Positions 4,919 through 21,171 of a stretch of 37,496 bases of DNA are shown here, one piece after another. The position numbers were made by a program, and so were the translations under genes. Where the stretch lies: positions 1-37,496 of the IMG/VR virus record IMGVR_UViG_3300025577_000031, one strand, 5' to 3'. The DNA comes from a virus. How positions within the stretch are numbered: position 1 is the first letter of the stretch; the number at the start of each line of letters is the position of its first letter. Below the pieces are notes generated by a model. That model did no database searches. It had not been told where the DNA came from and saw only the letters and a list, made by a program, of their open reading frames with translations.

Positions 4919-5287
4919 TTATACATTATTCTTGTCTTCGTAGGGATATCCCAATTGCTCATGTATCATGTAATTAGCAATCAATTGAAACCTAGTGTTT
5001 GCCCTATCGTCTTCTCCTCCACCTTTAATGATGTTAGATAAATTTTTTTGGATATTTTTTAGAGTTGTATCTGTACAACCAGTTTCATCTTTTATTTGCT
5101 CATCGTTATACTCTAAGATCTTCATCATGTAGTAATAACATAAGATAGCACCGTATCCCCCTTCAGGGAGATTAAAAGACCTTCCTGGACTCTTTCTTAT
5201 ATTTACTTGCTTTTTTAAAGCATTGTATAAGCTTTGAGGAGGATTAGGCAGTTCTCTGTACCTCTTTACTTGTTCTGTATTTAGCAT
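4919..5287 (-). CDS. Hypothetical protein (122 aa), possible helix-turn-helix
   Basis: Unrecognised. The middle (YNDEQIKDETGCTDTTLKNI, about residues 59-78) has the helix-turn-helix spacing seen in small DNA-binding proteins, but no family can be named. It lies directly between the YqaJ exonuclease (adjacent, start next to that gene's stop) and the SSB-like gene, so a recombination or replication accessory role is plausible from context only. Confidence 0.6.
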   Translation of the reverse strand: MLNTEQVKRYRELPNPPQSLYNALKKQVNIRKSPGRSFNLPEGGYGAILCYYYMMKILEYNDEQIKDETGCTDTTLKNIQKNLSNIIKGGGEDDRANTRFQLIANYMIHEQLGYPYEDKNNV

Positions 5288-8302: not shown

Positions 8303-9601
8303 TTAATTATTGTTATTTTGTGTACTTATAATTCTACTTTCTGCATCAATAAAAATTTGTTTCTGCTCTAATATAGTGTTATCAGTATTTAAATCAGCAT
8401 AATTATTAAGTACTGTTTCAACACTATCACCCATCATTTTAGCTACGATATGTACTTGCATTTTCAAGTCATTCATACAATGCATTCCGAAAGTATGCCT
8501 GAGTCTATGAGATGTTAGTGGCTCATCATCTTCAAATTCAATTTCTTTTTCTAACCTTTTTAAGAAATTATTATAATTCATAATATTCCTTTGTTTGATT
8601 TTATTTATATACTTACTATTTAATACATAGGGCTCAAATAAAATAGGCTTCAACTCATCTACTAGTTCCTTAACTTCTTGAGTTAAAAAGATACAGTAAT
8701 CTCCATATTTTTTATCTCCTTCTCCCTTTTGCCGAGTTCCAATCAGTGCAGGACCATTTATTGTTTGTGATACATCTAAACAATCCTCCTTCCCGAATTC
8801 AATAAATGATAACCCAGTATTAGCCTGAATAAGAGCCATGAGTTGATGCATTTTATCTTTAGTATCACTATAATCTAATTTTTTTATCTTAGCTACATAC
8901 TTCCAATCAATAGACTTAGCCAATGCTTTCTTTTTTCTTTCTTTTTTACCTTTTTGTTTTATTATGTCTTTAAACGGATTATTTATTAAATCAGGGATCT
9001 GGTCTAAATGATTCTTTGAGAATAAGTTAAATAAGCTTTTAAGTACTTGAATATATTGATAAATACTAGAATGTTTTAAACCAGAATCCTTTAAGTAGTC
9101 GGCATAATCAGTTACATGAGTTCTAAACATTTGCCTTGGCGCGTTTTTTATAACTGAAAAATTGCTATAAATCGTAGGTTTAGATTTTATAAAATTTGAG
9201 AAAGTCCCAGTAACTATTCTCTTGCCGTATAATGTGTGTTCAGACAAGTTTTTACTATGCTCCAGTGAGTAGTCAAAGACTTCTAAAATAGTGCTTGTGT
9301 ACTGGACAATATCTCCACCATAATAATAATCTAATACCTGATCAATATCATTGAATAAATGACCATCATAGTCCTCTAATTTTCTCTTCATTTCAATGAG
9401 CTTAATATTCTGCTCATGGTATTCATAACCAATCAATCCACCTCTTTGAAAATGGTCAGGATGATTAGCATAAATCTTGGTGGCTATTTGTCTTTGAGTA
9501 CTCCTAAATGTAATGTTAGCATAGATGCCTCTACGGTCAGAATTCTTAGAGGTTTTCTTTAAATAAAATGTTACGTTGATGTTTGTATTTGGTCTTTTCA
9601 T
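8303..9601 (-). CDS. int: Tyrosine-type integrase/recombinase
   Basis: A 432-residue integrase with a SAM-like core-binding domain (about 130-215) and a C-terminal catalytic domain. Visible catalytic residues are HRLRH (365-369) and the nucleophile Tyr401 in NNYADL. The first Arg position reads TGLSFIEF, with Ser instead of Arg, as in many integrases of this phylum, where an Arg a little further on (TRQKG) may serve; the His before the Tyr is replaced by Asp (MMGD, about 392). It would insert phage DNA at an attachment site, probably lying in the repeat-rich 300 bases upstream. It shows that the phage is or was temperate. Confidence 0.85.
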   Translation of the reverse strand: MKRPNTNINVTFYLKKTSKNSDRRGIYANITFRSTQRQIATKIYANHPDHFQRGGLIGYEYHEQNIKLIEMKRKLEDYDGHLFNDIDQVLDYYYGGDIVQYTSTILEVFDYSLEHSKNLSEHTLYGKRIVTGTFSNFIKSKPTIYSNFSVIKNAPRQMFRTHVTDYADYLKDSGLKHSSIYQYIQVLKSLFNLFSKNHLDQIPDLINNPFKDIIKQKGKKERKKKALAKSIDWKYVAKIKKLDYSDTKDKMHQLMALIQANTGLSFIEFGKEDCLDVSQTINGPALIGTRQKGEGDKKYGDYCIFLTQEVKELVDELKPILFEPYVLNSKYINKIKQRNIMNYNNFLKRLEKEIEFEDDEPLTSHRLRHTFGMHCMNDLKMQVHIVAKMMGDSVETVLNNYADLNTDNTILEQKQIFIDAESRIISTQNNNN

Positions 9602-10911: not shown

Positions 10912-11210
10912 GACCGTGCTATTTTGTTTCTGATTTCTTTTTCCCTAGCTTTTCTATTTATGTAGCTATTCCCTCTGAGGCTTGGGTCTGTCTCTTGTAA
11001 CTTTCTCCTTGCCCTCGTTATGGTGTCTGAGGTAGTGAGATCGAGACTGATGTAAAGTTTACAAAACTCCATAGCTTTTTCTCTGCTCACACCAAACTGA
11101 CATAACTCGTCAATCCAAATATTGGCGGTTAACTTCTTATCATCATCCTTACAATGATTGGCCACCTCTAGGATGGTTTTTACTTTATCTTGAATAGGTA
11201 TCTTTTTCAT
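10908..11210 (-). CDS. Conserved-looking phage hypothetical protein (100 aa)
   Basis: The protein has a helical first half (VKTILEVANHC, IWIDELCQFG) and a basic end with TITRARRKLQETDPSLRGNSY (about 60-80), a pattern I associate with uncharacterised proteins in phages of this phylum. The basic Arg/Lys run suggests nucleic-acid binding. Coupled at both ends by ATGA overlaps (11207-11210 and 10908-10911). Confidence 0.6.
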   Translation of the reverse strand: MKKIPIQDKVKTILEVANHCKDDDKKLTANIWIDELCQFGVSREKAMEFCKLYISLDLTTSDTITRARRKLQETDPSLRGNSYINRKAREKEIRNKIARS

Positions 11211-11413
11211 AGTCTATATCTTGAGATTCTTACTTTTTTTTCTTTTTTGTACAAGGGGCCAAGGTCTAAGTAGGGTTGACCTTCACCAGTTTTCAAGTAC
11301 CATAGCGAGATGCCATATTCCTTTATTAGGGTTCTCATCTCACGGTTATCTAAGACTGGTCTTTCCCTTAATTCTTTTACTTTATTAAGGGGTAACTTTT
11401 TACGTTCACTCAT
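11207..11413 (-). CDS. Small basic hypothetical protein (68 aa)
   Basis: Contains an apparent helix-turn-helix-like core (PLNKVKELRERPVLDNREMR, then EYGISLWYLKTGEGQP). The GISLWYLKTGEG segment resembles the end of XRE-type domains (WLLTGEG), so this may be a truncated regulator. It is the first gene of the block that ends at 9902 and follows a structured element at 11450-11491. Function unknown. Confidence 0.5.
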   Translation of the reverse strand: MSERKKLPLNKVKELRERPVLDNREMRTLIKEYGISLWYLKTGEGQPYLDLGPLYKKEKKVRISRYRL

Positions 11414-11449
11414 ATTTGATTGTTTTAAACTCTGCCAACATTGGCATTG

Positions 11450-11491
11450 GTTCTACTGAGGATCAAACCTCCACGCTCTAGGCGGTAGAAC
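11450..11491 (-). ncRNA. Three-way-junction RNA element, copy 1
   Basis: Read on the minus strand: outer stem GTTCTAC/GTAGAAC (7 bp), hairpin CGC-CTAGA-GCG, linker TG, hairpin GAGG-TTTGAT-CCTC. The outer stem differs in sequence from the other copies but pairs perfectly, which is evidence for a conserved fold. It precedes the gene at 11207-11413. The TTTGAT loop resembles a tRNA T-loop. Confidence 0.5.
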
Positions 11492-11533
11492 TATTAATAC
11501 GGATATTCCATATTATTATTTACTATTAGAGAT

Positions 11534-11561: not shown

Positions 11562-11846
11562 TTAAGCATTGGCTAATACCTCCTTTCTGACTATTTTTAT
11601 ACTCTCCCACTTAGAGGTGTCTCTCACCACCCAACCATCATCATTTATCTTTAGCTGATATACGCTACAGAAAATATCTGACTCATCTGTAATCCAAATA
11701 TTAATGTCGAATTCATCTCCTCTTGGGTTCTTTCTTGTGAACCAATGATCATCTAAATCATACTCTTTTAATTCTAGGATATATTTCATTCCTTGATAGG
11801 TCAGAATCATCTCATCTAAACCATCTATTATTGTTAGTTTATTCAT
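11562..11846 (-). CDS. Hypothetical protein (94 aa)
   Basis: Unrecognised, acidic, strand-rich protein (LTYQGMKYILELKEYDLDD, FCSVYQLKINDDGWVV). It ends with RKEVLANA, related to the KEVSHx ends of neighbouring cassette genes, and its last codons carry a degenerate version of the SD/ATG junction (AAAGAGGTATTAGCCAATG) leading only into a 17-codon ORF. It is the last cassette gene before the terminator at 11534-11557. Confidence 0.55.
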   Translation of the reverse strand: MNKLTIIDGLDEMILTYQGMKYILELKEYDLDDHWFTRKNPRGDEFDINIWITDESDIFCSVYQLKINDDGWVVRDTSKWESIKIVRKEVLANA

Positions 11847-12213: not shown

Positions 12214-12555
12214 TCATTTATTTAGGCAGTCATTTTCATTTGCCAAATCTGTCCACTCAGGCATGAGATCGTAGAAAAAGTCAGTGCAATCATTGGGAGT
12301 TACCTCAGAACCACATCCCCAACAAATGACACCTTCATCTTCTTCATCAAGACAACTAATATCTAGCGATCTGTGAATAAATGTTGTGCCACAAGTACAA
12401 CATTCTACTAGGTTTAGGTTATGGCTTTGCATTTCTTGCTGAAGATCAATCTGCTCCTCCAAGGCCTTTAATTTTAGGCTTACTTCTTGAGCATATGTTT
12501 TCTCAAGCTCTTTTACTTCCTCTTTTAAGCGATGCAATTTCTCTTTATTATCCAT
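12214..12555 (-). CDS. Zinc-ribbon protein with N-terminal coiled coil (113 aa)
   Basis: Residues 1 to about 45 are heptad-like (LHRLKEEVKELEKTYAQE, LKALEEQIDLQQEM); the second half has CCTCG (about 52-56) and CWGCG (about 77-81), forming a likely four-cysteine zinc ribbon, followed by an acidic tail. It would bind nucleic acid or protein. It is the second gene of its cassette and is preceded by a perfect SD, AAGGAGGTGA, seven bases of which overlap the previous gene. It ends with NDCLNK, exactly like the gene at 15632-15814, because both stops merge into the leader repeat. Confidence 0.65.
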   Translation of the reverse strand: MDNKEKLHRLKEEVKELEKTYAQEVSLKLKALEEQIDLQQEMQSHNLNLVECCTCGTTFIHRSLDISCLDEEDEGVICWGCGSEVTPNDCTDFFYDLMPEWTDLANENDCLNK

Positions 12556-12838
12556 TGCTCACCTCCTTATCTATTCGTTTAAGATCATAATTTTCCTCTG
12601 CGAAATGGTTTATACTAAACCATACCTGATCCATCGTACATTCATTTGTCAAAGAACTATATAGTATGTCCCTTGCGGTTTCATCATTGCAATCATACTG
12701 CTCTTGAACATCAGGTAAAGACCAATAAAGATCAACATATGCATCCTCTTTAATCTTTGGTAAATCTTCACCACTTGATTCAATTAACTTTACTAGTTTT
12801 TTAAATTGCTCTTCTGAGCCTTCAATTAACTTTCTCAT
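12548..12838 (-). CDS. Hypothetical acidic protein (96 aa)
   Basis: Unrecognised helical protein (EEQFKKLVKLIESSGEDLP; VQEQYDCNDETARDILYSSL; VWFSINHFAEENYDLKRI). First gene of a cassette: a three-way-junction element and the GTTAAACTAAA leader precede it. Its end, DKEVSNG, is encoded by the perfect SD (12559-12568) and start of the next gene. Acidic and small, like several anti-defence proteins, but there is no direct evidence for that role. Confidence 0.55.
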   Translation of the reverse strand: MRKLIEGSEEQFKKLVKLIESSGEDLPKIKEDAYVDLYWSLPDVQEQYDCNDETARDILYSSLTNECTMDQVWFSINHFAEENYDLKRIDKEVSNG

Positions 12839-12873
12839 TATTCATTTATTTAGTTTAACATTCATTTTAATTG

Positions 12874-12916
12874 CTCCCATTGAGGATCAAACCTCTACGA
12901 TCTCAGTCGATGGGAG
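12874..12916 (-). ncRNA. Three-way-junction RNA element, copy 2
   Basis: Minus strand: outer stem CTCCCAT/ATGGGAG (7 bp), hairpin CGA-CTGAGA-TCG, linker TA, hairpin GAGG-TTTGAT-CCTC. It sits between the operator-rich region at 12959-13057 and the leader of the gene at 12548-12838. Same fold as the copies at 14274, 15283, 16037 and 16738 with changed but compensating pairs. Confidence 0.55.
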
Positions 12917-12958
12917 TATCATGTATTACTTAAATTAGCCTAATACGTTTGTTTTAAT

Positions 12959-13057
12959 AATTGCGCTCATTTTTTATTAATTGCGCCTATTTCTTGTAAC
13001 AAATACACATTCAAATATGTTACAAGATTGGTTTGAAATAGTGCATAGAATTGCACT
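12959..13057 (-). promoter_or_regulatory. Operator-rich control region of the left cassette operon
   Basis: Within about 100 bases there are: two AATTGCGC copies 20 bases apart (12959-12966 and 12979-12986), a 9-bp inverted repeat CTTGTAACA/TGTTACAAG (12993-13001 and 13018-13026), and AGTGCA/TGCACT (13040-13045 and 13052-13057). Two one-mismatch -7 boxes (CATATTTG, TGTATTTG) lie inside the larger inverted repeat, so a protein bound there would cover the promoter. The surrounding 12917-13201 holds no substantial gene. Confidence 0.5.
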
Positions 13058-13086
13058 TTGAGTATAACAATAGGATAAATAATAAA

Positions 13087-13222
13087 CTATTTTATTGTAA
13101 TGTGTATTATAAAGCACTCATTAATGTCTTTTTGATACCTTAATGACTCATTATTCATGCGAACCCCCTTCAAATTCCATTGTCTTTAACTCCTATATTG
13201 ATCATCCATGGCTCACCTCCTT
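13087..13222 (-). other. Collapsed cassette: tiny ORFs behind a perfect SD
   Basis: The perfect SD at 13213-13222 leads into an ORF of only 7 codons (MDDQYRS, from 13209). Then follow a 9-codon ORF (MEFEGGSHE, from 13180), whose end mimics the KEVSHx/SD junction as GAAGGGGGTTCGCATG, and a 23-codon ORF (MNNESLRYQK start, 13158 to 13087). They look like the boundary pieces of cassettes whose genes were lost, or leader peptides. Confidence 0.35.
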
Positions 13223-13600
13223 TATGTTTGGTTTATTCTTCTTTATAATTTCCAGAATTTCAGAATAAGTCTTCTCTCCTTCAATAGGCATTTTATATTT
13301 TGGTTTTTCATCCTCGTAACCGACAATTTGATTTTGTATTAGTTTGTATTTTGTCGACCATTCTTCCATTAACTCTTTATTTTCATCTCTTAATTTCTCT
13401 ACTAGTTCGTTATGTTCCTTAACAACTGCTGACAAGTTGGATTTGTTGACTTCTATTTTTCTAGGGATATCCAATACTTGACGTTGATTCCACCAAAGTT
13501 TAAATCTATCATCGAGTTCACTTTCGAGTTCTTTAGCCATTTTAGGATGTTTTCTGATTAGTAAATCAGCTATTTGCAATCTTGCATTTATATCATTCAT
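13202..13600 (-). CDS. Coiled-coil hypothetical protein (132 aa)
   Basis: A long helical protein with a predicted coiled coil at about residues 55-95 (VNKSNLSAVVKEHNELVEKL, RDENKELMEEW) and a WWNQRQ segment before it. It ends with NIKEVSHG, the shared cassette terminus. The ATG at 13600 overlaps the previous gene's TGA (ATGA). It may mediate oligomerisation; function unknown. Confidence 0.6.
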   Translation of the reverse strand: MNDINARLQIADLLIRKHPKMAKELESELDDRFKLWWNQRQVLDIPRKIEVNKSNLSAVVKEHNELVEKLRDENKELMEEWSTKYKLIQNQIVGYEDEKPKYKMPIEGEKTYSEILEIIKKNKPNIKEVSHG

Positions 13601-13842
13601 TGTTTTAATTGTTTAGGTTTGTTATAATATTCTTTTGTCTTTAATTCCTCTTTAGTCTCATTGATAATTGCTTGAGTTTTAGGATTATTCTTATGAGTTT
13701 CATCCTCATATAAAACCTCAAGGTTATGTATATTAATCTTAGCTATCACCTTGCTTTTCTCATTATTGTCTTCTGTTTCCCAATAATCGACATAGAGTAA
13801 ACCTTCATCTTCATCTATATATCCTATACAATATTCAGACAT
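13597..13842 (-). CDS. Hypothetical acidic protein (81 aa)
   Basis: Strand-rich N-terminal half (EYCIGYIDEDEGLLYVDYWE, KSKVIAKINIHNLEVLYED) and a charged helical end. Its start ATG at 13842 is preceded by the perfect SD at 13846-13855, which lies inside the 3' end of the upstream gene. It is thus the second gene of its cassette. Function unknown. Confidence 0.6.
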   Translation of the reverse strand: MSEYCIGYIDEDEGLLYVDYWETEDNNEKSKVIAKINIHNLEVLYEDETHKNNPKTQAIINETKEELKTKEYYNKPKQLKQ

Positions 13843-14239
13843 GGCTCACCTCCTTCTTTAAATACATAGCATCTAAATCTATATCAGTCAGCGTTTCACC
13901 ATGAATAAACCTTGAGATATCAACTACTACATGGTCATCGCTATACTCTTCAGCATCCTCCTCTGATCCAAAAACAATATTCTTGTAAATACCATCTTCA
14001 TCTACTAGTCCATAATAATCAGTGATGTTGGTTGACACATAAGAATCCAACTCATCTTCTTGGTCATCTGTAGTACCATCCTCATGTTCGATTACTGGGA
14101 ATTTATTGTAGATAAAACTCATGCCATCAGACCAATCTTTAAACTCGTGATCTGTGAAATAATGTATTCCATCATAGTATCCTTCAATGATGAACTTGTG
14201 CTTCACGTTTTCGTGAAATCTTAATTTTTCAAAATCCAT
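13835..14239 (-). CDS. Strongly acidic hypothetical protein (134 aa)
   Basis: Rich in Asp and Glu, with few basic residues after the first 15 (GTTDDQEDELDSY, SEEDAEEYSDDHVVVDI). That composition is seen in DNA-mimic anti-restriction proteins, but no family is recognised, so this is only a suggestion. It is the first gene of a cassette, preceded by a structured element (14274-14315) and the leader repeat, and ends with KKEVSHV through the SD of the next gene. Confidence 0.6.
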   Translation of the reverse strand: MDFEKLRFHENVKHKFIIEGYYDGIHYFTDHEFKDWSDGMSFIYNKFPVIEHEDGTTDDQEDELDSYVSTNITDYYGLVDEDGIYKNIVFGSEEDAEEYSDDHVVVDISRFIHGETLTDIDLDAMYLKKEVSHV

Positions 14240-14273
14240 ATTTATTTATTTAGTTTAACCATTTATTTAATTG

Positions 14274-14315
14274 CCCTTACTAGCTATTAAAAGCTCACGA
14301 TCTAGTCGGTAAGGG
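14274..14315 (-). ncRNA. Three-way-junction RNA element, copy 3
   Basis: Minus strand: outer stem CCCTTAC/GTAAGGG (7 bp), hairpin CGA-CTAGA-TCG, linker TG, hairpin AGCT-TTTAAT-AGCT. The outer and third stems have sequences unlike any other copy yet pair perfectly, the best compensation evidence in the set. It begins 6 bases after the stop of the 51-aa gene and ends 35 bases before the next start. Confidence 0.6.
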
Positions 14316-14321
14316 TATCTA

Positions 14322-14477
14322 TTAGGCTGACTCCAGGATAAGCTGTATAAGCTCATCTATGGTACCTCCGCTTTCTATCCATTCTTTTTGATCTGTCACG
14401 GATAGCGTTTCTATGATAGGGACATAATTGCCTTCAAACTCAAAGGTTCCTATTTGGATCTTGATAGCTTTATGCAT
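14322..14477 (-). CDS. Small hypothetical protein (51 aa)
   Basis: A complete ORF, from MHKAIKIQIG to ELIQLILESA. It is preceded by AAGGAGGTGC (14481-14490), a nine-of-ten match to the strong cassette SD, placed inside the 3' end of the upstream gene (NKEVQNA). The overlap and SD strongly support translation. The sequence is strand-rich at the start and ends in a helix (GTIDELIQLILE). Function unknown. Confidence 0.65.
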   Translation of the reverse strand: MHKAIKIQIGTFEFEGNYVPIIETLSVTDQKEWIESGGTIDELIQLILESA

Positions 14478-14790
14478 TTTGCACCTCCTTATTTATGTGT
14501 TTTAGAATGTAGCTATACTCTATGGGGTTGTACTTTTTAATGATCTCTAATGCCTTTATATGATATGGCTTATTCCCATTCCACACGATATCCCATGCAT
14601 CTTCTTCGTTCTGTAAATGGACTTCACAGTCATCTTCATTATCGTATTTGCCGATTTGTAAAAATCCATTATCAGAGCCGTAGCATTCCCATATAGTCCA
14701 ACCTTCTTTCCATGCGGAATTATTGTTAGATTCGCTCCAATCATAATCTTTGACTTCCTTGAAGGGGTCTACTTTCTTTTGATCAAGCAT
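14470..14790 (-). CDS. Hypothetical acidic, Trp-rich protein (106 aa)
   Basis: Rich in Trp, Asp and Asn (YDWSESNNNSAWKEGWTIWE; EDAWDIVWNGNKPYH). No motif recognised. The perfect SD at 14794-14803 sits 4 bases before the ATG (counting from its end) and within the upstream gene. It ends with NKEVQNA, a cassette terminus carrying the next SD. Confidence 0.6.
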   Translation of the reverse strand: MLDQKKVDPFKEVKDYDWSESNNNSAWKEGWTIWECYGSDNGFLQIGKYDNEDDCEVHLQNEEDAWDIVWNGNKPYHIKALEIIKKYNPIEYSYILKHINKEVQNA

Positions 14791-15247
14791 GGCTCACCTC
14801 CTTCTCTCTATGACTTCCACACACAAGACATTTATCTTCAAAATAGTCCGCAGATGGGGTATCTGCCTCGCATGGTTTGCAATAAGCATATTTATAGCCT
14901 AGTTTATTTCCTAGTTCATAGATAAAACTAGTGCCATGGGTGTCTTCTAAATAATCGCATAATCTGTAAACTTCATCTTCGCAAAGATGTTCTTTACAAT
15001 AGTCTACCATCTCATTAAATGATAGACTCAGGAAGCCCTCTTTCCAATTCAGATTAGGTGGTATAATAAATTTATCAGCATGACTCGTCTCCTTATTTTC
15101 TATTACTTCATACATATCCACTTGATTATAATCATACTCTTCAAGGGCTATTTCAACTGCTAATTTTTCCGCATCTTTCTTATTGGTTGCCTCCACATAG
15201 TAGGAGGGATAAACGGTCTTTTTTAATACTACTTTAAACTCTTTCAT
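14783..15247 (-). CDS. DpnD/PcfM-like domain protein with zinc knuckles (154 aa)
   Basis: I start it at MKEFKVVLKK (15247); the longer ORF up to 15295 only adds the leader repeat and part of the structured element. Residues 1-50 (MKEFKVVLKKTVYPSYYVEA, then a DAEKLAVEIALEE helix and MYEVIE) match the fold pattern of the small DpnD/PcfM family and are paralogous to the gene at 15807-16001. The rest has a helical segment and a Cys-rich end (CKPCEAD, CLVCGSH), a likely zinc site. It ends with KEVSHA. Function of the family is unknown. Confidence 0.6.
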   Translation of the reverse strand: MKEFKVVLKKTVYPSYYVEATNKKDAEKLAVEIALEEYDYNQVDMYEVIENKETSHADKFIIPPNLNWKEGFLSLSFNEMVDYCKEHLCEDEVYRLCDYLEDTHGTSFIYELGNKLGYKYAYCKPCEADTPSADYFEDKCLVCGSHREKEVSHA

Positions 15248-15282
15248 TATTTCTACTTTTAGTTTAACATTCATTTTAATTG

Positions 15283-15323
15283 CTCCCATTCGCAATCAAA
15301 TGCCACGCTCAGGGCGATGGGAG
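15283..15323 (-). ncRNA. Three-way-junction RNA element, copy 4
   Basis: Minus strand: outer stem CTCCCAT/ATGGGAG, hairpin CGC-CCTGA-GCG, linker TG, hairpin GCA-TTTGAT-TGC followed by GA. The third stem differs from copies 2 and 5 by paired changes. It precedes the leader of the gene at 14783-15247. Confidence 0.55.
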
Positions 15324-15347
15324 TATTGCATCATGTTGTGTATGGCA

Positions 15348-15602
15348 TTATTTTATTTCAAAATACATTTTTCCATCAATTGCAAATCTATTTTGGACAC
15401 TTGCAAGACTCATAACCGTTCCTTCGGTTTCAAACTCAACTGATTTGAATAATTCTTCAGAACTTCTTCCGATATCTATTGGTGTAGTATATTTAAATTC
15501 TTTAATCCCTCTTTTAGCACAATCACTTGCCATATAAATTATGTTTTGAACGTGTTTTCGGAAATTAAGTTCTTGTTGATTTTTATTTATTTCTATCCTC
15601 AT
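15348..15602 (-). CDS. Hypothetical protein (84 aa)
   Basis: Unrecognised; a helical first half (NFRKHVQNIIYMASDCAKRG) followed by strands (FKYTTPIDIG, VEFETEGTVM, DGKMYFEIK). The ATG at 15602 overlaps the stop of a 10-codon leader ORF (MVKLNKLKTK) in an ATGA arrangement, so this gene may be translated by re-initiation from the leader. Confidence 0.55.
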   Translation of the reverse strand: MRIEINKNQQELNFRKHVQNIIYMASDCAKRGIKEFKYTTPIDIGRSSEELFKSVEFETEGTVMSLASVQNRFAIDGKMYFEIK

Positions 15603-15631
15603 TTTGTTTTTAGTTTATTTAGTTTAACCAT

Positions 15632-15814
15632 TTATTTATTTAGGCAATCATTACAAGACACCATTTTACGTAAGTCCTCATCTTCTACCATCCAATGAGG
15701 ATTATCCTTGCTATCAAACCCAACATAGAATACCCCATCAGTAAACTGCTCACCCTCTTTGTAGTCCTTTGACATTCCGCAGTTATCACAAGTGATAGTT
15801 ACTAGATCACGCAT
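15632..15814 (-). CDS. Small four-cysteine zinc protein (60 aa)
   Basis: CDNCG (about residues 9-13) and CNDC (about 54-57) probably bind one zinc ion around a short strand-rich body. It is second in its cassette, with the perfect SD at 15818-15827 inside the upstream gene. It ends with NDCLNK, as does the unrelated zinc protein at 12214-12555, because the stop merges into the leader repeat. Function unknown. Confidence 0.65.
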   Translation of the reverse strand: MRDLVTITCDNCGMSKDYKEGEQFTDGVFYVGFDSKDNPHWMVEDEDLRKMVSCNDCLNK

Positions 15815-16001
15815 GGCTCACCTCCTTCATTTCTGTTACACTTTCCACTTCATACATCTCAGGATCATTATCTAATTCGTAACAATGTGGGTCTTCACAA
15901 GCCATATCTATTGCCTTTTCATTAGCATCATCCTCATCAATTGCATCTACACAAATAGTGAAATACGATGTCTTTTTTAATTCTACTTCAAACTCTTTCA
16001 T
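15807..16001 (-). CDS. DpnD/PcfM-like small protein (64 aa)
   Basis: Start taken as MKEFEVELKK (16001); the upstream extension is the leader repeat. It aligns with the first half of the protein at 14783-15247 (shared MKEF-V-LKKT-Y, V-A, DA, MYEV), so the two are paralogues: this one is the free-standing domain, the other a fusion to a Cys-rich part. It ends with MKEVSHA, encoded by the SD of the next gene. Confidence 0.6.
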   Translation of the reverse strand: MKEFEVELKKTSYFTICVDAIDEDDANEKAIDMACEDPHCYELDNDPEMYEVESVTEMKEVSHA

Positions 16002-16036
16002 TATTTCTATTTTTAGTTTAACATTCATTTTAATTG

Positions 16037-16078
16037 CTCCCATTGGTCATCAAAGACCCACGCTTTAAGCGATGGGAG
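16037..16078 (-). ncRNA. Three-way-junction RNA element, copy 5
   Basis: Minus strand: outer stem CTCCCAT/ATGGGAG, hairpin CGC-TTAAA-GCG, linker TG, hairpin GGTC-TTTGAT-GACC, one unpaired A. It begins 6 bases after the stop of the gene at 16085-16258 and precedes the leader of the gene at 15807-16001. Confidence 0.58.
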
Positions 16079-16084
16079 TGTAGT

Positions 16085-16258
16085 TTACCAAGATGTAATT
16101 GTGAACTCTAAGCCTTCTTCAGATGGATGTCCATAATAAAATATTTCATCATCATCGATTGGACATTCTTCTATGATGCCATCGTACATCAAATACCCTC
16201 TGAAAATGTCATTGGGGTCATCATTCCAATAACCGTTAACGGTGTATATCTTATCCAT
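16085..16258 (-). CDS. Hypothetical acidic protein (57 aa)
   Basis: Start at MDKIYTVNGYW (16258), chosen because a near-perfect SD (AAGGAGGTCA, 16262-16271) stands in front; an in-frame ATG at 16285 lies inside the upstream gene. The protein is acidic and aromatic (YWNDDPNDIFRGYLMYDG, CPIDDDEIFYYGHP). Function unknown. Confidence 0.6.
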   Translation of the reverse strand: MDKIYTVNGYWNDDPNDIFRGYLMYDGIIEECPIDDDEIFYYGHPSEEGLEFTITSW

Positions 16259-16703
16259 GGCTGACCTCCTTGTTATTAGGTACAAAATTCTCTCTCACAT
16301 AGTCTTCTCGTAGCATTGGTATGAAGCCATCAACATCCTTGACATTGTCATATATCTGACCTCTTAAACTGCACAACTCCTCATCATCAGGGATGTCGTA
16401 ACATCTTAGGAAATCATACCCCAAGGATTTTTCCATAGCCCTTAACTCCTCATTTGAAAGGTCTTCAAAATACGAACTGATCCATGTATTATAATAGTGA
16501 TCTATCTCAAGGATTCCAACCTCAGAATTCCCATCATCTGAAATCTCATTACCATCGCAATCACTGATTATTGCAATATCTGTCAGTGATCTAAAACATT
16601 GATCATCGTTGTGTACTAGTACATCTTGAAAGGTCATGTCATCGCTATAATGTTCTAGCTTTCTATCCGCATATCGGAAGGTATGTATTACTCTATTTTT
16701 CAT
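16251..16703 (-). CDS. Hypothetical acidic protein (150 aa)
   Basis: Unrecognised, acidic, with a strand-rich beginning (VIHTFRYADRKLEHYSDDM; SLTDIAIISDCDGNEI) that resembles the opening of ParB/antirestriction-associated small proteins only in a general way. LSNEELRAMEKSLGYDF near the middle is helical. Preceded by structured element copy 6 and the leader repeat; ends with NNKEVSHG. Confidence 0.55.
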   Translation of the reverse strand: MKNRVIHTFRYADRKLEHYSDDMTFQDVLVHNDDQCFRSLTDIAIISDCDGNEISDDGNSEVGILEIDHYYNTWISSYFEDLSNEELRAMEKSLGYDFLRCYDIPDDEELCSLRGQIYDNVKDVDGFIPMLREDYVRENFVPNNKEVSHG

Positions 16704-16737
16704 CTTTATTTATTTAGTTTAACCATTTATTTAGTTG

Positions 16738-16780
16738 CCCTCATTGGTCATCAAAGACCCACGCTCAAAGGCGAAGAGGG
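16738..16780 (-). ncRNA. Three-way-junction RNA element, copy 6
   Basis: Minus strand: outer stem CCCTCTT/ATGAGGG (one T-T mismatch), hairpin CGC-CTTTGA-GCG, linker TG, hairpin GGTC-TTTGAT-GACC. Located between the small membrane ORF (16786-16863) and the leader of the gene at 16251-16703. Confidence 0.55.
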
Positions 16781-16785
16781 TGCTA

Positions 16786-16863
16786 TTAGCTTTGTTCTCG
16801 CTCACGTTCAGCCAACCACTCAAGGGTTAGCATGAACATTGCGAATAAGACATAAAGTATCAC
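16786..16863 (-). CDS. Putative 25-aa single-span membrane micro-protein
   Basis: A GTG start overlaps the ardC stop (GTGA). The peptide is a hydrophobic helix (ILYVLFAMFMLTL) followed by a charged tail (EWLAEREREQS), the form of a phage membrane micro-protein. It stops 6 bases before structured element copy 6, the same spacing seen after the 51-aa gene and the 57-aa gene. That shared spacing and the coupled start support a real gene, though its size makes this uncertain. Confidence 0.45.
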   Translation of the reverse strand: MILYVLFAMFMLTLEWLAEREREQS

Positions 16864-17831
16864 GATTCTATGCTATTATTTACAAGTAGAGCAAAAGCCT
16901 TGGATGCTTGGGTCATAGCAGTAGCTATCTCTTGTGGCTTACTGGTCAGGTGCTTGATCCATCCATTGATGTATGCCTGAGAGTTGTTAGTGTTATCCTT
17001 TGGATCAAGACCTAGATAACCAACCATATACATGGAGGTAATCTCAGCTACTAACTCTTCTCTTGAATAGGTCTCAGTTCCAAATCCATTAGTCTCTACC
17101 AAGGTCTTTCTATTAAGCCTATCCTGATGACCAGTAGCATGAGCCATCTCATGAAAGAGGGTCTTATAGTAGCTATCAGCATCAACGAATAAGTCCATCA
17201 AAGGCATGTTAATGCTATCGGTCATTGGACGATAAAATGCACTACTATTATCTTTGTGGTCGATGACAAGCCTACCATCTTTATCGACATAACTTTTGAC
17301 CAGTTGATCAGCTACTTCGATAGGCTCAAAGGTCACTTCTTCGATCTCTTCCTCAACTTGTGGAATTTTTGAATCAAGACCTTCGCATTGGTCGATGTTG
17401 AATACCTTGTAGTTGCGGATATTGAATACCTTCATGTATCTATCTGAAGACTTGCCATCAAGAACTATTTTCTCTCTCAGGTTAAGAGATTTGGCATTCT
17501 GAATGGGTATGTACTTCTTTGTCTTTTTGTCGAAATAGGACAACTGCCAAAAGAATACATCAGTAGCTTTCATACCTTTGATGATCTTGCCGTTAGCATT
17601 TGAGCATTGCTTGAAGGTCAACCATTCGTTGGAATTGTATCCACCATCAATGATGGATGCATTCAGCATAAATACGTTGATGCCGTTGTAAGGCTTTCTA
17701 GTCACCCAGTTGACTGGATCATTTGAACTACTGCCATTTGAGGCTTTCCATGGCTTAAACCATTTTAAGCCTTTGGTCTTCAGACCTGATATCACTATTT
17801 CATTTATTTTGTCATGTGTTTTACTCATCAT
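16860..17831 (-). CDS. ardC: ArdC-family antirestriction protein
   Basis: The N-terminal part (KWFKPWKASNGSSSNDPVNW, then RKPYNGINVFML) is the ArdC ssDNA-binding domain, and the C-terminal part is a zincin metallopeptidase domain with HEMAHATGH (residues 227-235 from this start) and the third ligand in the EELVAEI helix (about Glu263). ArdC proteins protect incoming single-stranded or phage DNA from host restriction. I start at MMSKTHDK (17831) because the longer ORF to 17873 runs into the structured element at 17861-17904. Length of 323 residues is normal. It gives the island its likely anti-defence theme. Confidence 0.85.
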   Translation of the reverse strand: MMSKTHDKINEIVISGLKTKGLKWFKPWKASNGSSSNDPVNWVTRKPYNGINVFMLNASIIDGGYNSNEWLTFKQCSNANGKIIKGMKATDVFFWQLSYFDKKTKKYIPIQNAKSLNLREKIVLDGKSSDRYMKVFNIRNYKVFNIDQCEGLDSKIPQVEEEIEEVTFEPIEVADQLVKSYVDKDGRLVIDHKDNSSAFYRPMTDSINMPLMDLFVDADSYYKTLFHEMAHATGHQDRLNRKTLVETNGFGTETYSREELVAEITSMYMVGYLGLDPKDNTNNSQAYINGWIKHLTSKPQEIATAMTQASKAFALLVNNSIES

Positions 17832-17860: not shown

Positions 17861-17904
17861 ACCCATGTCGCAATCGAATGCCACATCTATTTCAATGCAT
17901 GGGT
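17861..17904 (-). ncRNA. Three-way-junction RNA element, copy 7 (variant)
   Basis: Minus strand: outer stem ACCCATG/CATGGGT, second hairpin CAT/ATG with an 8-base loop, linker TG, third hairpin GCA-TTCGAT-TGC. Outer stem and loop differ from the others but the order of parts is the same; TTCGAT fits the T-loop-like pattern TTYRAT. It lies directly before ardC. Confidence 0.5.
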
Positions 17905-18750: not shown

Positions 18751-19727
18751 TTTGCTTTATACATCTGTATCTTTCACCTTTGCGTCTAAATCCGATTTTT
18801 ACTGATGCTGAAAGTAGGTCTATGACCATTCTTACGCTCCCTTTGGGTATTCCTCGATTATCTTAATTTTTGTAAAGAAATCTGGAATTACTATCCGACT
18901 TAGTTATGTTATTTTTGAGATGTGGTTTGACTGACGATCGAAGGATGAAATTTGCTAGATTTCTATTGGATTGGATACCTTGGTCAATTATGCTTTGCCT
19001 GCTCCCCTCACGCATTACTAGTAAATGATGAAGGCTTTAAGTACTGTCCGATACACGTTTGCATCGTATTGACATTGCAAGTATAAAGTACTCAAGATCA
19101 ATATTCCAAATTTATTGTAAAGTTTTTTTCATTTTTTGTTAAAATAAATTTCAGCATTGCATTATTATACCTTATATAGGGCTGAGATTTGAACTTTTTA
19201 TACTGGAGCGCAATAATTCATCGAAACCTTGCAGCCATGCTCAAGTGAATGGTCTAATAATATAGTAGGGGAAAGAGAATACTTTGGATGTTTTCCTCAA
19301 GAATACTTTTGAAATCTTTTTGCGTGGCGTGGGATGAGATGGTAAGTGAGATGGGAGGAAGGTCTATGGCGATAAGACAAAGAGGTGGAAAGATTTTGAA
19401 CCGCCATGTTGGGTGGATTGGTGGACATCTTTTTGAAAAGAAAAGTATTATCTGCTGTCAAGGTATCGTAAAGGCTATTTATTGGTGATGACTTCCATGA
19501 ATAGTCAAATCCCATTCCAATTAACCATCAAAGACCCACCCCATTCGAGATTCCGAATCCGCAGATCGGGCCGACACGTCACACACCACATAACCCCACT
19601 GTCTCACAGCTACAAATTATGAAATTCATAATGGGGTCTCGTAAAACCCCTGGATTATAAAGACACTAAAAAAAATATTATAATAAAAGATATTATATTT
19701 TAAAAATATTGCAATAAAAGAGGATAT
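18751..19727. other. About 1 kb without a convincing gene; possible structured RNA
   Basis: No ORF here has the composition of a protein gene; the two overlapping ORFs at 19288-19515 are on opposite strands and neither has a leader. A 40-codon minus-strand ORF (18707-18829, start MVIDLLSASV) has a GGGAG in front but runs into the element at 18694-18750. A minus-strand TAAATTTG box is at 19107-19114. The stretch 19517-19560 contains ATCAAAGACCCA, a decayed match to the three-way-junction elements, and 19540-19610 is richer in GC than its surroundings. It may be an untranslated RNA or control region. Confidence 0.4.
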
Positions 19728-20188: not shown

Positions 20189-20719
20189 TCATGGCTGCAA
20201 CCTTACCCACTCAGGTAGATAATTGGTGTTGCTATAGTATCCACTTTCAGGTTGCCAGGATACTTGATTTTCTAGATGTTTAATGTTGAGCTCCACAATT
20301 TTATCATGGTCATATGTTACTCTTTCACCAGCTCTCTTACCATCTTTAACTTTAAATGTAATTGTTTTGTTTAAACCAAGAAGATTTTTTCTTAGGAAGA
20401 AGTATCCGCTGAGTATTAGATCTGAGTTGTCCATAATTATATTTAAGTTTTTGTCTTCATAGAATCTACTATACCAAGATAGTAGTATTGTTTCCGCATC
20501 GCTGATCTCATGATACAAAGAGCGAGCGTTACGCTTCTCTTGCTGAGTGGGCATAGAGTTTTTAACAATACCAGGAAGCTGTTGTATTTCTTTGTAGTGG
20601 TCCTCACCACTAACATATTGAGTCACTCTGTTTAGTAAAGACTTACACTTGCTATACATGGATAAAACATCTGATAATCTATCTGTATCGATTACTTCAT
20701 TACTTATTGTTGTATTCAT
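20189..20719 (-). CDS. Hypothetical protein (176 aa), paralogue of 19728-20015
   Basis: Residues about 20-85 match the shorter neighbour (C-x-SLLNR, LPGIVKNSM, ARSLYHEI, ILLSWY); the second half (FFLRKNLLGLNKTITFKVKD, then a C-terminal LPEWVRLQP) is extra. No catalytic motif. It sits beside GroES and before the divergent late control region, so it is perhaps expressed early. Function unknown. Confidence 0.6.
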   Translation of the reverse strand: MNTTISNEVIDTDRLSDVLSMYSKCKSLLNRVTQYVSGEDHYKEIQQLPGIVKNSMPTQQEKRNARSLYHEISDAETILLSWYSRFYEDKNLNIIMDNSDLILSGYFFLRKNLLGLNKTITFKVKDGKRAGERVTYDHDKIVELNIKHLENQVSWQPESGYYSNTNYLPEWVRLQP

Positions 20720-20791
20720 GCAATTTTAATTTTTGGTGAATAACAAATATAAATATTACTAATAATATTAGCAAGAAAAAAGAGAATAAAT

Positions 20792-21141: not shown

Positions 21142-21171
21142 TTGCGTACTCCGTATTATTTATTACATTTG
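21142..21171 (+). promoter_or_regulatory. Strong Bacteroidota-type promoter of the late operon
   Basis: TTG (21142-21144), 19 bases, then TACATTTG (21164-21171): both boxes and the spacing match the TTTG/TTG-N19-TAnnTTTG consensus. The start site would be near 21178, so all structures from 21197 to 21722 would be in the leader of the morphogenesis transcript, about 570 bases before its first gene. Confidence 0.7.

Follow-up and report, generated by a model that had tools for sequence, protein, structure and literature searches.

We analysed a phage fragment of 37,496 bases (virus record IMGVR_UViG_3300025577_000031; its full length is called the window in the rest of the text) in which most genes start from A-rich leaders without a Shine-Dalgarno (SD) sequence, and which carries an island of minus-strand genes with extended SDs, complementary to the 3′ tail of 16S rRNA (the anti-SD). 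All of these SDs lie at the overlap between the stop of one gene and the start of the next. We consider it fairly probable that the second genes of the island are made by SD-assisted coupled termination-reinitiation, in a phylum, the Bacteroidota, that is otherwise blind to SDs.

Extended SDs at stop/start overlaps

The sequence AAGGAGGTGANNNATG occurs exactly at 12553-12568, 13207-13222, 13840-13855, 14788-14803 and 15812-15827, all on the minus strand, with no other exact copy in the window. Near-perfect anti-SD complements on the same strand, AAGGAGGTGCAAAATG and AAGGAGGTCAGCCATG, precede the starts at 14477 and 16258, respectively. The initial annotation had reported sites before the starts at 12555, 13209, 13842, 14477, 14790, 15814 and 16258, and six bases separate GGAGG from ATG at each of these seven; the spacing is nine bases at an eighth site that it had overlooked, a variant SD before 11569. 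With one mismatch allowed, the pattern has 13 matches in the window against 5.45 expected, a count reached by 0 of 100 shuffles. Across 296 genomes of the phylum (~1.1 Gb), AAGGAGGTGANNNATG occurs 43 times compared to 30 times for its reversal, so that about 0.0015 copies would be expected per 37.5 kb where five are seen, and the five sites are therefore far from chance.

ViennaRNA gave the duplex energies with a 16S tail assumed to be of the Bacteroidota type (GAUCACCUCCUUUCU), from which the host's own tail may differ. Five of the seven sites fall between -17.9 and -18.6 kcal/mol, and those at 14477 and 16258 reach -14.8 and -12.4 kcal/mol. All remaining genes scored in the window are weaker than -8.7 kcal/mol. 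The earlier claim that the other genes have A-rich, SD-less leaders is correct, apart from a few weak SDs (for example 23492, -8.6 kcal/mol).

At eight of eight sites the SD occupies the final codons of the gene before it, where it is read in frame as AAG GAG GTN (K-E-V), and start and stop overlap by exactly 8 nt. For a count over all starts we used simple longest-ORF (open reading frame) calls, uncurated, without use of the SD for choosing starts, and took as strong any SD below -12 kcal/mol. Strong SDs were found at 6/18 overlapping starts compared to 0/48 others (Fisher P = 2e-4), and at 0/18 overlapping starts when scoring was moved upstream by 20 nt. The Bacteroides phages B124-14 (6/22 overlapping starts versus 0/49 others, P = 5e-4) and B40-8 (3/15 versus 0/51, at sites partly common to B124-14 and so not independent) likewise confine their strong SDs to overlapping starts, although there the sites are scattered genome-wide and the overlap lengths vary. 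The restriction is weaker in crAss001 (4/13 versus 1/39, at a milder cut-off of -10 kcal/mol). In 97 stretches of phylum genomes (1.8 Mb), strong SDs stand at 6/125 overlapping starts and 5/1310 others (P = 1e-4), some of these genomes being SD-using in general.

A pair of paralogous first genes offers a comparison within the island. Genes 15807-16028 and 14783-15274 share 51% identity over 73 residues (BLASTP E 1e-15), the former resembling the N-terminal part of the latter. Gene 15807-16028 ends at the SD junction AAGGAGGTGAGCCATGCGTGATC; in a nucleotide alignment, the homologous place inside gene 14783-15274 reads AAGGAGACGAGTCATGC-TGATA, where the overlap is one base short and the frame continues into the would-be second gene. 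Three substitutions in the SD stretch of this fused place leave it at -8.9 kcal/mol, compared to -18.3 kcal/mol at the intact junction, and the protein ends align as ...MKEVSHA* and ...NKETSHADKF. Judging from these alignments, gene 14783-15274 appears to be a fusion of two formerly coupled genes, and the strong SD goes with the junction whichever form, fused or split, is the older. Given K-E-V, the chance of AAG-GAG-GTG is ~0.017 per junction under window codon usage (GTG makes up 10% of Val codons), a value whose multiplication over junctions assumes an independence that shared origin may break. Because these codons are chosen against the codon bias, the RNA sequence, and not the peptide alone, is likely under selection.

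Viral contigs carrying AAGGAGGTGAGCCATG number 77 and come mostly from SD-using phages. Contigs L007, L018, L031, L035 and L076 appear SD-poor and show isolated overlap SDs; they were selected by motif and were therefore not counted for the restriction.

The host phylum was deduced from the phage proteins. The window codes for a terminase, a portal, an SU10-like major capsid protein, a primase, a YqaJ exonuclease, an integrase, ArdC and GroES-like proteins; terminase and portal matched PHROGs, and the core proteins are nearest to those of Bacteroidota phages. A related terminase is found in 87 public phage records, all from Flavobacterium, Cellulophaga, Tenacibaculum or Maribacter phages except for one unassigned Caudoviricetes, and the order of the Cpn10, terminase and structural genes in the Flavobacterium phage elemo resembles the right half of the window. 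Since the relatives of the terminase belong to phages of Flavobacteriia, apart from the one unassigned record, the assignment to Bacteroidota, which the initial annotation had presumed, is sound, and the host very probably belongs to this phylum, most likely to the Flavobacteriia. A terminase search of GTDB genomes found no prophage relative, and an integrase search of viral contigs found no relatives.

Proposed coupled reinitiation and its alternatives

From the observed positions, strength and overlap of the SDs, their restriction to overlaps, the weak SD at the fused junction and the covariation of a leader element (see below), we infer a ribosomal mechanism in which the second gene depends on the first and the leader may have a role. 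The first gene (A) of a short unit would have an A-rich leader that lacks a strong SD, with the 44-nt folded element ahead of it in most cases, and the next gene (B) would start within the last codons of A, behind the extended SD. A ribosome finishing A would stop 8 nt into B; the SD, already under that ribosome, would pair with the 16S tail and thereby reset the ribosome on the AUG of B. We propose that B requires a strong SD since the anti-SD of free 30S subunits is concealed in Bacteroidota and these subunits start inefficiently at B unaided; translation of B would therefore scale with that of A.

Several known systems resemble parts of this scheme. In Bacteroidia, bS21, bS18 and bS6 form a pocket that hides the anti-SD of free 30S subunits (PMC9976891). 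The programmed prfB frameshift site of Bacteroidia, a strong SD-like stretch that lies within the coding region and acts on the translating ribosome, is kept in 72% of the genomes examined (PMC8710568), so that translating ribosomes of this class seem to use an internal SD; for this reason the island SDs probably serve mainly ribosomes that have just finished gene A, although they would lead to a new start and the prfB site leads to frameshifting. In the termination-reinitiation pairs described by Huber et al. 2019 (PMC6728339), the second start likewise falls within the final part of the upstream gene and the SD within the upstream coding sequence; how far reinitiation requires such overlap SDs varies in E. 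coli and H. volcanii. That work studied E. coli and Haloferax, whereas here the overlaps are of 8 nt rather than ATGA and the SDs are near maximal length.

A number of observations weigh against SD-assisted coupling. The genome survey in PMC6728339 found Bacteroidetes to be without SD use even for reinitiation, so that the island would, if confirmed, be a phage-borne exception. Among the overlapping starts of ten further Bacteroidota phage records or pieces, 1/134 has a strong SD; overlap SDs are thus a habit of some phages and not of all, and this count together with the survey implies that coupling in the phylum does not generally depend on an SD. Once general SD users are removed from the phylum genomes, the enrichment at overlaps is weak (2/84 versus 2/1037, P = 0.03). 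Within the window, overlapping pairs at starts 13600, 11210, 10911 and 10769 have no SD, and the data on the fused junction are compatible with either its loss or its gain. Finally, the claim that the strong SDs lead second genes stands for six of eight sites; those at 13209 and 11569 are SDs without a substantial second gene, as the ORFs behind them have only 7 and 16 codons.

Behind the SD at 13209, the minus strand of 13040-13209 holds very short ORFs in series (7, 9 and ~23 codons) that may be remnants of a second gene.

The initial annotation had instead proposed a switch by which the second genes come on together when, for instance, bS21 is short. In this reading, free 30S subunits lacking bS21, with their anti-SD open, would initiate directly at the sites, for example during infection. 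The strength of the sites does place them with rpsU of Bacteroidota, an extended SD below -13 kcal/mol that is read better without bS21 (PMC9976891): six of the seven sites first reported lie beyond that threshold of about -13 kcal/mol and 16258 is at -12.4, with the caveat that the energy parameters and the tail used here may not be those of that paper. The energies thus fall within the range of a gene known to respond to bS21 loss, reporters with strong SDs rose 3-4 fold upon bS21 mutation or depletion (PMC9976891), and several sites occur within one island. As in rpsU (McNutt et al. 2023, PMC9976891), extended anti-SD complementarity stands out in an otherwise SD-blind phylum; however, in F. 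johnsoniae rpsU is a single gene that has a short leader to itself, while the island has several non-ribosomal phage genes, all at overlaps. It is this overlap, the common denominator of the sites, that coupling predicts and a free-30S switch does not. The switch leaves unexplained why strong SDs occur only at overlaps in the window and in B124-14 and B40-8, why the overlap is constantly 8 nt and why two minimal ORFs are preceded by such SDs, and the window has no bS21 gene (no PF01165 match to rpsU, with control genomes positive). As originally stated it is unlikely to be correct; a bS21-shortage switch is not needed, and could possibly act on top of coupling.

Two evolutionary explanations bear on the same junctions. 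The gene pairs could come from, or also be used in, SD-using hosts, their SDs being passive in the present one; indeed, unrelated SD-using phages commonly carry the junction AAGGAGGTGAGCC-ATG together with K-E-V-S-H and the 8-nt overlap. We nevertheless judge such an import quite unlikely, as GC content and GC at third codon positions (GC3) of the second genes (0.36 and 0.35) are close to those of the first genes (0.35 and 0.31) and of the rest (0.34 and 0.30), the first genes of the units carry Bacteroidota-type leaders, and the SD is strong where the junction is intact and weak where it is fused. Alternatively, the junction could be a copied unit of duplication or recombination, kept by recent shared origin and not by function. 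A GCC before the ATG that is unneeded for pairing yet present in most copies, repeats of ~25 nt and the paralogous first genes would fit this explanation, but for most pairs the likeness ends at the junction, the paralogous first genes are so far diverged (only 51% identical), and the sole copy freed from the junction has decayed; we regard it as very unlikely.

The strong SDs found only at overlaps in the island and in the two Bacteroides phages suggest that the hidden anti-SD of Bacteroidota ribosomes becomes usable once the ribosome is on the mRNA. The island is a natural test of when SD-blind ribosomes can still use SDs, through which the question of anti-SD accessibility becomes testable.

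A structured leader before the first genes

Seven copies of a 44-nt three-way junction lie on the coding strand between 11449 and 17904 (minus), before first genes of the island including the gene for ArdC. The fold has a P1 of 7 bp, a P2 of 3 bp and a P3 of 3-4 bp, with a loop that is mostly UUUGAU. A covariance model (R1) built from four copies (16036, 15282, 14273 and 11449) recovers the three outside the training set (E 1.7e-11, 3.5e-11 and 7.8e-4), with no other match in the window. Both-sided changes occur in 13/14 pairs, 99% of cells pair and one-sided changes are zero, giving a covariation score of 0.952 compared to 0.289 +/- 0.057 in shuffles and <=0.163 in slid structures; the score profits from an alignment made to fit the structure, but a hand alignment agrees. 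There are no G-U pairs, which is unusual for RNA and for this reason makes a role at the DNA level possible. The leader is a well-supported candidate for a possible new family of structured RNA (or DNA). Searched against Rfam 15, the window gave no match at the gathering score; the model was unmatched in B124-14, in 45 related loci and in 118 phylum genomes, an empty genome search being weakly informative, and leader patterns were not found in viral contigs. An integron attC site was rejected because the hairpin lacks paired flanking boxes, an intrinsic terminator because no U-run follows the stem, and a tRNA because a tRNA search of the window found none.

The conserved motif ATG(AAT)GTTAAACTAAA is present in seven copies just before gene starts on the minus strand (12217, 12865, 14262, 15274, 15631, 16028 and 16726), either as an in-frame gene start (MNVKLK..) or as a short upstream ORF (MVKLNK* or similar), and five leader copies end 8-11 nt upstream of it. 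This position suggests that the leader controls initiation at the first gene, apparently as a second and new regulatory layer of the island. In a broader version, the leader would gate the first genes and the extended SDs would be readable only by ribosomes with an open anti-SD, whether post-termination or poor in bS21 during infection, so that the phage would sense which state the host's ribosomes are in; such a two-input translational regulon strikes us as quite improbable.

Gene content of the island

Features of the island and of motif-selected viral contigs. Energies are in kcal/mol; E values are for model R1.
Feature	Coordinates	Strand	Context	Value
Extended SD AAGGAGGTGAGCA	12556-12568	minus	3′ end of gene 12548-12838, before start 12555; exact pattern	-18.3
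Extended SD AAGGAGGTGAGCC	13210-13222	minus	3′ end of gene 13202-13600, before 7-codon ORF (MDDQYRS*) at 13209	-17.9
Extended SD	13843-13855	minus	3′ end of gene 13835-14239, before gene 13597-13842	-18.5
Near-perfect SD AAGGAGGTGCAAA	14478-14490	minus	3′ end of gene 14470-14790, before gene 14322-14477	-14.8
Extended SD	14791-14803	minus	3′ end of gene 14783-15274, before gene 14470-14790	-18.6
Extended SD	15815-15827	minus	3′ end of gene 15807-16028, before gene 15632-15814	-18.3
Near-perfect SD AAGGAGGTCAGCC	16259-16271	minus	3′ end of gene 16251-16703, before 57-codon ORF 16085-16258	-12.4
Eighth, variant SD AGAAAGGAGGTATTAGCCA (AGAAAGGAGGTATTAGCCAATG)	11570-11588	minus	3′ end of gene 11562-11846, before 16-codon ORF at 11569	-17.7
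Decayed junction AAGGAGACGAGTCATG	15079-15094	minus	inside gene 14783-15274; homologous to 15814 SD junction	
Leader element	17861-17904	minus	before ArdC gene 16860-17831; outside training set	E 7.8e-4
Leader element	16737-16781	minus	before gene 16251-16703; outside training set	E 3.5e-11
Leader element	16036-16079	minus	before gene 15807-16028	E 3e-15; fold z -3.9
Leader element	15282-15324	minus	before gene 14783-15274	E 6.2e-14
Leader element	14273-14316	minus	before gene 13835-14239	E 1.1e-14
Leader element	12873-12917	minus	before gene 12548-12838; outside training set	E 1.7e-11
Leader element	11449-11492	minus	before gene 11207-11413	E 6.8e-15
First gene	16251-16703	minus	150 amino acids, isoelectric point (pI) 4.3; A-rich SD-less leader	
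First gene	15807-16028	minus	73 amino acids	
First gene	14783-15274	minus	163 amino acids	
First gene	13835-14239	minus	134 amino acids, pI 4.2	
First gene	12548-12838	minus	96 amino acids, pI 4.4	
Isolated extended overlap SD	9337-9582	minus	contig L007	-22.2
Isolated extended overlap SDs	5189, 5622	plus	contig L031	
Isolated extended overlap SD	5062-5271	minus	contig L035	
Isolated extended overlap SDs	2065-2271, 2739-2879	minus	contig L076	

First and second proteins of the island are mostly small and acidic (pI 4.1-4.9), and their genes follow the ArdC antirestriction gene; an anti-defence or host-takeover set is a reasonable guess. Gene 15632-15814 codes for a 60-residue protein with weak similarity to the Lar zinc ribbon (PF14354, E 0.0048, under the Pfam cut-off). 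In a blastn search of the island against phages and plasmids, the sole match was a 70-nt piece (~13528-13597), shared at 80% identity with a single phage and a single Bacteroides plasmid record, and relatives of ArdC in viral contigs are mostly SD-poor, without an SD island and without the leader element. Between ~18700 and 19700, about 1 kb is poor in coding content; near 19545 it holds part of a leader-like repeat that seems to have decayed. A Bacteroidota-type promoter (TTG-N18-21-TAnnTTTG) has one match at 20744 on the minus strand, upstream of gene 20189-20719, and another at 21171 on the plus strand, upstream of the rightward structural block.

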